Assembly: GCF_023684405.1 (NCBI RefSeq)
Contig: NZ_JAGSOI010000026.1
Span: 1 to 33,458, forward strand
Reading direction: 5' to 3'
DNA: 33,458 bases
Origin: Methanococcoides seepicolus
GTDB taxonomy: Archaea > Halobacteriota > Methanosarcinia > Methanosarcinales > Methanosarcinaceae
In this document: one piece after another, positions 31,660 to 33,117 of the stretch
Layout of the letters: each line of letters begins with the position of its first letter
Numbering within the stretch: position 1 is the stretch's first letter
Position numbers and translations under genes: made by a program
The notes under the pieces: generated by a model
The model's input: only the letters and a program-made list of their open reading frames with translations
Databases searched by the model: none
Told to the model about the DNA's origin: nothing

Positions 31660-32217
31660 AGTCCCTCACTTTTTTCTTTCAGACCGCTCCTGCCCTTTAA
31701 TTTCATTTGATCGGATTTCATATTATAGCATGAAATGTCATGCCATTTTTTTAAATTTCACACCCAGATCTTACTCTTCCCTCAAAAGCCGATCTTCAAT
31801 ATTTCTCAAAGATTAGACTACTAATTAAGTATTAGTTTCAAATTGAAAAGGAGGAGTTCAAGGCAGAGTTCTCACCCTGCCCCGATACACGAAGGAGGAG
31901 TTAAATGTACACCAGTCAAGAACTTTGAGATGGAAAGGGAGTATGGTGGTTTGTGTGTGGTTCAAGAGGTAGTAACTTATCCGTTTTTCAAGAAACTGCC
32001 CAAAGTTCTCGTCCAATGTACAATTCTCTAAATACATGAATAATACTTAAACATTTCCATAAATAGACAGGTTCTTTCATATATTGATTTTATAAATACT
32101 AATATTTCCATAAAACTACCACAACCCCCGTTAAACTTATAGCCCATCAACCCATTTAAGCTCTGTAGCACCTGAAAATAGGCTGATAGTGTCTCAGGTA
32201 CTATTTTAATTCAACAT
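31660..32217. other. Long non-genic region before tRNA-Val
   Basis: It starts with the T-run that ends the kinase operon. It contains a direct repeat of AAGGAGGAGTT at 31848-31858 and 31892-31902 and a weakly supported small frame at 31843-32031 (62 residues, from TTG, ending LPKVLVQCTIL). A seven-codon frame MYTSQEL starts at 31904, right after the second copy. The rest is AT-rich, with tRNA promoter sequence presumably just before 32218. No gene is claimed. Confidence 0.4.
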
Positions 32218-32291
32218 GGGCTCGTGGTCTAGCTGGTTATGACGTTGCCTTCACACGGCAGAGGTCGGGTGTTCGAATCTCCCCGGGCCCA
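32218..32291 (+). tRNA. tRNA-Val (anticodon CAC)
   Basis: A 74-base cloverleaf. The acceptor arm GGGCTCG (32218-32224) pairs with CGGGCCC (32284-32290), the D arm contains AGCTGGTTATGA, the anticodon stem-loop is TGCCTTCACACGGCA with anticodon CAC, the T loop is GTTCGAATC, and the discriminator is A. CCA is not encoded, as is common in archaea. The T stem has one T-T mismatch. It reads GUG valine codons. A minus-strand gene overlaps its 3' three quarters. Confidence 0.93.
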
Positions 32292-32581
32292 TCTGGTTTT
32301 TCTGAAGCGGTTGATGGCGGTTTTTCTAGTTCAATGATCCTTTGCTCCAGCGAAGCTAGCCTTGTTTCGAGGGTTGAGTTTAAACTATCAGGAGTTAAGT
32401 TTGAACTATTACAACCTAAAGTTATCAAAAATGCCTGCTTGCCCTCATGTTCTATTGGATTAATCTCTACCTTCTCACCAACAAGATATAAGTATTCTTT
32501 AGGCAAGCGAAGAGTGGGATAAGCTCTTGTTTTACTGGCACTCAATTTCGTGATCTTTGATTGAAATGGTTGTTTTATCAT
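32237..32581 (-). CDS. AbrB/SpoVT-like DNA-binding protein with coiled coil, running antisense into tRNA-Val
   Basis: 114 residues. Residues about 8-55 (ASKTRAYPTLRLPKEYLYLV, then GEKVEI) look like an AbrB-type swapped-hairpin DNA-binding domain. Residues about 70-92 (LETRLASLEQRIIELEKP) form a short coiled coil for oligomerisation. The last 17 residues (GPGEIRTPDLCRVKATS) are simply the antisense of the tRNA, so the original C-terminus was probably replaced or the frame runs on by chance. A TATA box and twin GTTTAAAC palindromes stand directly before the ATG, which argues that the gene is real and autoregulated. Such genes are typical of plasmids and integrated elements. Confidence 0.6.
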   Translation of the reverse strand: MIKQPFQSKITKLSASKTRAYPTLRLPKEYLYLVGEKVEINPIEHEGKQAFLITLGCNSSNLTPDSLNSTLETRLASLEQRIIELEKPPSTASEKPDGPGEIRTPDLCRVKATS

Positions 32582-32582
32582 A

Positions 32583-32615
32583 GTTTAAACGTGTGTTTAA
32601 ACTTTATATACTTTT
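32583..32615 (-). promoter_or_regulatory. TATA box and twin GTTTAAAC operator of the AbrB-like gene
   Basis: GTTTAAAC, itself a perfect palindrome, occurs at 32583-32590 and 32595-32602 separated by four bases. Upstream on the minus strand, AGTATATAAAG (about 32603-32613) is a TATA box centred some 27 bases before the ATG at 32581, so the mRNA is probably leaderless. The palindromes fill the gap between TATA box and start site, where an archaeal repressor acts. A third copy lies inside the gene at 32378-32385. Confidence 0.55.
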
Positions 32616-32706: not shown

Positions 32707-33105
32707 TTAGAGGTTCTTTCCATCAATGATTGTTTCAACGGTTTCACATGCCTTATAAACTGAAGTGAGATATTTTTGAGGCTGGTCAGGACAATAGTAC
32801 CATTTGGTATAATACTCCATAGCTCCCACAACAGAATCCGAATTGCGATTAGATTCTTTACACACTTTAAGAGCAATCCCTAAAATTATAACTTGATAAT
32901 CCGTATTTGTTCCAAAAAGGGTTTGCCTATCTGGCCAAATTTCAGTTGCGATATATAAAAGACGTTCAGCATCTACAGGCTGAAGCTCCAAAAGCATTAC
33001 TGTAGCTGATAGAAAATAAAACTCAGCGAAATCCAGAATGTGGTTGTAGTCATTTTCAGAGTATTTTTTGAGTAGAAATGGAATTGACCTGTGTCTTTCC
33101 GACAT
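32707..33105 (-). CDS. Uncharacterised alpha-helical protein
   Basis: 132 residues from ATG 33105 (MSERHRSIPFLLKKYSEND); GTG 33117 would add four. The protein seems all-helical and soluble, with aromatic-rich stretches (DFAEFYFLSATVMLLELQPV, YYTKWYYCPDQPQKYL) and no signal peptide or membrane segment. The pattern of paired helices could suggest a TPR-like fold, but I do not recognise a family. It stands alone between the AbrB-like gene and a transposase, in an AT-rich accessory setting. The ribosome binding site is weak. Confidence 0.6.
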   Translation of the reverse strand: MSERHRSIPFLLKKYSENDYNHILDFAEFYFLSATVMLLELQPVDAERLLYIATEIWPDRQTLFGTNTDYQVIILGIALKVCKESNRNSDSVVGAMEYYTKWYYCPDQPQKYLTSVYKACETVETIIDGKNL

Positions 33106-33117
33106 GAATACCAACAC

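Follow-up and report, generated by a model that had tools for sequence, protein, structure and literature searches.

Near one end of the window, by which we mean the whole 33,458-nt stretch of Methanococcoides seepicolus DNA analyzed here, two identical 8-bp palindromes lie between the TATA box and the start codon of a short open reading frame (ORF). Which protein would recognize them, and what would it do there? The original prediction took the ORF for an AbrB-like regulator that represses its own promoter. Its description of the layout was accurate: the palindrome GTTTAAAC occurs beside the start codon (32583-32590) and again beside the TATA box (32595-32602), with starts 12 bp apart and a 4-bp spacer. 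The pair (32583-32602) directly abuts the TATA box TATATAAA, assigned by sequence (32610-32603, minus strand), and is separated by one base from the minus-strand ATG (32581-32579), thereby filling the gap between them. The third copy that had been reported for the coding region was also found (32378-32385), in the coding frame and as part of a 10-bp palindrome, AGTTTAAACT (32377-32386), in the linker that follows the N-terminal domain. Judged against the TATA-to-start distance of archaeal promoters, the 29 nt from the first base of this TATA box to the ATG makes a leaderless or nearly leaderless transcript plausible. Shuffled versions of the window had an expectation of 0.60 copies of GTTTAAAC, and at least three copies appeared in 2 of 100 shuffles. 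The 2.80-Mb genome contains 19 GTTTAAAC sites (the reversed, different word occurs 65 times), three of which are those of the window, all within 225 bp.

The 114-aa ORF (32237-32581, minus strand) terminates in GPGEIRTPDLCRVKATS, the antisense reading of tRNA-Val(CAC), and its stop codon also falls within the tRNA gene (32217-32293, plus strand). Of the 185 genomes of the order, 59 hold relatives, fragments counted; within Methanococcoides the figure is 10 of 11 genomes, that of the window included. From 43 deduplicated relatives we used 36, omitting seven as short, weak, or partial. For 32 of the 36, an antisense tRNA gene (27 Val with anticodon TAC or CAC, one Val GAC, two Gly, and two Gln) is present at the end of the ORF or next to it, with overlap in 26; the ORF ends in KA[MT]S in 20 of the 36. 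In one relative, L055, the frame continues without a stop through the same tRNA-derived words to give a 436-residue protein, in which the same N-terminal domain is fused in frame to the archaeal phage integrase domain PF16795 (135.8 bits; cut-off, 27).

Given the antisense tRNA at the ends of the relatives and the continuation of L055 into an integrase, we identify the window ORF as intN, the N-terminal portion of a suicidal SSV-type integrase gene that was split by integration into tRNA-Val(CAC), the target gene being reconstituted at attL. Integrases of this type carry the att site inside the int gene, target tRNA genes, and are split into int(N) and int(C) (PMC8371274). Each of these traits was found here. 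The att site lies inside the integrase’s own gene in tRNA-derived sequence, as seen in the L055 frame and in 32 of 36 relatives. L055 has the catalytic domain of an archaeal tyrosine recombinase, with the R, KTIR, and Y of the R...KXXR...Y signature found by eye, and PF16795 also matches an intC on contig C129 of the window genome (137.5 bits). In 12 of 12 elements in relatives, chosen because both halves were on one contig and with the expected order in mind, intN and intC stand at opposite ends on the same strand. The idea of a free-standing AbrB regulator was rejected on the same evidence of antisense tRNA ends and of the L055 continuation: what the ORF encodes is an N-terminal piece of a split integrase, its tail specified by antisense tRNA-Val.

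Kinship of the N-terminal domain itself with AbrB was not confirmed either. None of nine members matched an AbrB family of Pfam at E ≤ 1, the hhalign probability against AbrB was 1.1%, and NCBIfam gave no match for the N-domain. The best hit of a PDB sequence search (query A1) had E 0.041, with coiled coils making up most of the hits, and Foldseek returned no match at E ≤ 0.001. In the structural comparison VIA-align 2, 41 of 816 chains reached Z ≥ 2, with a best Z of 3.8; the top four were designed DZBB-fold proteins, and C56 of pSSVi (Z 2.3) was too weak a match to use. The single-chain model is weak (pLDDT 68.1, pTM 0.37); it predicts the element order E6-9, H28-33, E37-45, E48-55, directly followed by a predicted helix over residues 64-86. 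This predicted strand/helix order and an LP word before the helix would fit the swapped-hairpin DNA-binding proteins of the AbrB/MazE/SpoVT type, but there was no significant profile match and no convincing fold match to them.

The window contig ends ~850 bp beyond the intN promoter. A 68-bp stretch (32248-32315), which starts in the anticodon arm and probably includes the att core, is identical to DNA on contig C129, which carries the intC mentioned above, so that C129, on the strength of this identity, is likely the other end of the window element. On C129 an older intN remnant precedes intC, with a stop codon between them. This truncated remnant is joined to intC via tRNA-derived words (L030; G000:C129 1789-2856, G000 being the window genome) and resembles the distal end of an element that integrated later at this tRNA gene. 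Contig C146 was set aside as a candidate for the other end, its att words belonging to tRNA-Val(TAC). The next ORF inside the element (32707-33117, minus strand, 136 aa) has no family match; its weak relatives in the element regions of G106 (40% identity over 60 aa) and G109 (34% over 87 aa) hint at a shared element family. The end of the window contig (33383-33458) is the ORF start MNCPRCKSSNHKKNGKIDGRQRYKC, which we take to be that of an IS-transposase-like zinc ribbon. Since the same DNA recurs at the start of contig C84 (L029 34-108), a repeated IS probably broke the assembly at this point. A search of IMG/VR gave 76 pattern stretches, none of which was confirmed, and no plasmid (4) or phage (64) record covered 80% of L055, the matches displayed lying in the part after residue 130.

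Comparison of the N-terminal 59 residues places the six closest relatives in G106, G103, G109, G102, G118, and G135. Those of G103 (L076) and G102 (L078) carry the GTTTAAAC twin at 11-bp spacing and an in-gene copy, that of G109 (L077) has GTTTAAAC once upstream and once in the gene, and that of G106 (L075) has GTTTAAAC at the ATG and GTGTAAAC both further upstream and in the gene; in all four, the copy beside the start codon occupies the same position as in the window. The two remaining genes (L079 in G118 and L080 in G135) have a different palindrome, GTGTACAC, again both upstream and in the gene. Across the wider family we found the words GTTGTACAAC or GTTATACAAC, GTTACAYAA, GTTATAAAAC, GTTGTGCAAC, and AATTGCGCAAT, and in many members the word at the promoter is also that in the linker. 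The recurring set consists of one or two palindromes at the promoter or start, plus at least one in the linker that follows the N-terminal domain.

This diversity bears on the proposal that GTTTAAAC pairs would provide a searchable motif for a regulon, which did not survive a wider search. The window genome has one such twin. With gaps of 1-8 bases, twins occur at 19 places in 12 of 111 family genomes, and 16 of the 19 are in nine genomes other than G000, G102, and G103. We fetched 16 of the loci: the intN gene was present only at those of G000, G102, and G103, and absent from the fetched loci of the other nine genomes. The twin alone is therefore not diagnostic, and GTTTAAAC pairs were rejected as a regulon probe. 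Most relatives of the window gene use palindromes other than GTTTAAAC, and a single consensus for the whole family was likewise rejected, as other subfamilies carry other palindromes.

We then asked how closely the upstream and in-gene words correspond. The best ungapped match between each member’s upstream region and its own linker averaged 9.28, compared to 7.64 against the linkers of other members (n = 36), a value reached in 0 of 20,000 permutations; the same test on four other coding segments gave p of 0.08-0.76, the linker segment having been picked after the sites had been seen. The upstream stretch of this first run was too short for L079 and L080, and a later run extended it by 18 nt for all members. 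With representatives below 90%, 70%, and 55% identity (30, 14, and 8 members), the extended run reached the observed value in 0, 0, and 135 of 20,000 permutations. The best own match lay off the sites in 9 of the 36 members (L007, L053, L060, L063, L070, L072, L037, L039, and L040). A later-fetched set of seven loci, from which L201 and L202 were omitted as duplicates of L059 and L066, gave 8 of 5,040 exact permutations, using sequences that had been seen before the test and an in-gene stretch of 75 rather than 60 nt. Within this set, a clear matching palindrome was present in L194, L199, and L200 and in part in L195; L196, L197, and L198 had no clear matching palindrome. Separately, we noted that L200 (G129:C62:10200-11200) carries three TTRTACAAT-type copies in the gene and one upstream.

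Codon choice in the linker points the same way. A V-[VITK]-[QK] motif is present in the linkers of 22 of the 36 members, the window’s own subfamily being without it, and its valine codon is GTT in 22 of 22 cases, compared to 42 of 131 elsewhere. Its isoleucine codon is ATA in 7 of 7 cases, compared to 66 of 207 elsewhere. This codon use indicates that the linker is conserved as DNA and not only as protein, and the permutations indicate that upstream and in-gene words change together across the relatives; both the permutations and the codon counts correct only partly for shared ancestry. A chance coincidence in AT-rich DNA is already disfavored by these two tests. GTTTAAAC is self-complementary and unrelated twins do occur in the nine other genomes, as coincidence would allow, but the clustering of 3 of 19 genomic copies in the window, their reappearance at matching positions in G102, G103, G109, and G106, and the concerted change of the upstream word with the in-gene site lead us to regard chance as very improbable.

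In most of the whole elements searched for exact words, the copies lie chiefly at the integrase gene. Both GTTTAAAC copies of the G109 element are at int, as are both GTTTTATAAC copies in G140, all GTTRTAYAAC copies in G006 (3/3), G008 (2/2), and G136 (2/2), and the GTTACAYAA copies of G157 (2/2), G160 (2/2), and G167 (2/3). In G162, G132, and G134 the exact word at intN was found only as an in-gene copy, and in G131 and G005 there was none at intN. On the intC side of the examined elements, an element’s own word was absent except in older intN remnants; the remnants next to intC in G160, G167, G005, and C129 carry a differing word. Two elements of the window genome itself have different words, GTTTAAAC in the window and GTTATACAAC on C84.

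Since the sites travel with the N-terminal domain and differ between elements of one host, we infer that the factor binding them is the integrase’s own N-domain. Control of int by some other regulator, encoded by the host or the element, has a precedent in SSV1, whose int is under a separate repressor, F55 (PMC8371274), and this precedent counts against self-binding by analogy. So does IntSSV2, in which the N-terminus serves multimerization and the middle part contacts DNA (PMC8371274). A separate regulator is harder to reconcile with words that differ from one sister integrase to another and inside a single host genome, and with the fact that the sites move with int itself, so that a host factor in particular is not an easy fit; we consider such a regulator quite unlikely.

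The reading that we favor, with somewhat better than even confidence, is that the N-domain binds the palindromes and represses the promoter of its own gene, an activity that it could retain once the gene has been split. The palindromes would be cis-sites of the self-splitting integrase gene; N-domain bound over the TATA/start region would repress int, and the in-gene site would act as an auxiliary operator or roadblock. The predicted helix over residues 64-86, perhaps a coiled coil, could join dimers across sites, although this is speculation. Promoter, sites, and N-domain remain together on the intN side, so that splitting would yield a small DNA-binding protein that represses its own gene rather than a useless remnant. 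The operator idea of the original prediction is thus partly and indirectly supported: the sites recur, co-vary with the in-gene copy, and have their matching word chiefly at int in most whole elements, but the protein assigned to them is not a free-standing AbrB regulator.

The main rival is that the palindromes are arm-type sites, bound by the N-domain during recombination as lambda Int binds the arms of attP, with any effect on transcription a by-product. The same conservation data fit this explanation, and in 19 of the 21 members measured, ~96-144 bp separate the in-gene site from the T-arm part of the tRNA-derived att region (117-121 bp in 14; 219 bp in the two others). Yet the upstream palindromes fall on the TATA box and start codon, the own word is missing from the intC side outside older intN remnants, and core-region sites are described as sufficient in vitro for the characterized suicidal integrases (PMC8371274). 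We think an arm-type role alone unlikely, although arm-type sites and operators could be the same sites. As with the arm-type sites of lambda Int (named in PMC8371274), a recombinase N-domain would contact additional sites outside the core; the difference is that here matching intC-side sites are absent and the upstream sites are on the promoter.

For autorepression, the closest parallel is the bacterial KplE1 intS, a negatively autoregulated, tRNA-associated phage integrase gene with integrase sites overlapping the int promoter (PMC2951348). The putative sites described here overlap the int promoter by position, their binding being inferred. The KplE1 gene stays whole after integration; the integrase gene described here is split, and only intN keeps the promoter and sites. 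That an integrase can down-regulate its own gene through sites overlapping the promoter is already known from bacteria (PMC2951348). Nor is the element type new, since split SSV-type integrases are known and a 2021 review names Methanosarcinales in brackets beside the pT26-2 family (PMC8371274). SSV1, pTN3, and pT26-2 share with the window element an att site in the int gene, a tRNA target, and a split into int(N) and int(C). The integrases of pT26-2 and pGE2 also have the PF16795 catalytic domain found in L055 (35.5% identity between L055 and pT26-2 over 67% of L055’s length), but their N-termini are different, with only sub-threshold CcdA/BrnA-like matches. These matches, to the CcdA and BrnA antitoxins, were seen in the N-terminal parts of both the pT26-2 integrase (L179 1-1059) and the pGE2 integrase (L181 34-1155); perhaps several suicidal integrases carry regulator-type N-domains. 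In literature searches, mostly at title and abstract level, we found no description of a matched promoter/in-gene site set with concerted change, and at the same level none of the sites staying with the N-terminal part when the gene is split.

According to the same review, the two pieces into which a suicidal integrase gene is cut are inactive pseudogenes, their expression being an unsettled matter (PMC8371274). The stepwise joint evolution of the intN sites at the promoter and in the coding frame suggests a definite role for the N-terminal part, that of a repressor, which can be put to the test. The site words also allow integrative elements of Methanosarcinaceae to be sorted into site groups by sequence only, and such groups make it possible to test whether elements of the same group exclude each other. 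A possible but doubtful extension of our reading is that gene splitting is a switch, by which intN would become a stand-alone, self-limiting repressor that keeps its promoter and operators and silences both itself and an incoming intact int of the same word. If true, this would be a homo-immunity system, lambda-like in logic, with GTTTAAAC, GTGTACAC, GTTRTAYAAC, GTTACAYAA, GTTATAAAAC, GTTGTGCAAC, and AATTGCGCAAT as immunity groups. According to the 2021 review, immunity of the lambda type had not been reported for archaeal mobile elements, although the review also describes a cI-like repressor in phiCh1 (PMC8371274). Genomes with several intN copies (G134, G132, and G000) are too few to test the immunity groups; the copies that coexist in them, L055, L194, and L195 in G134, L053 and L196 in G132, and those of the window and C84 in G000, carry differing or slightly differing words.
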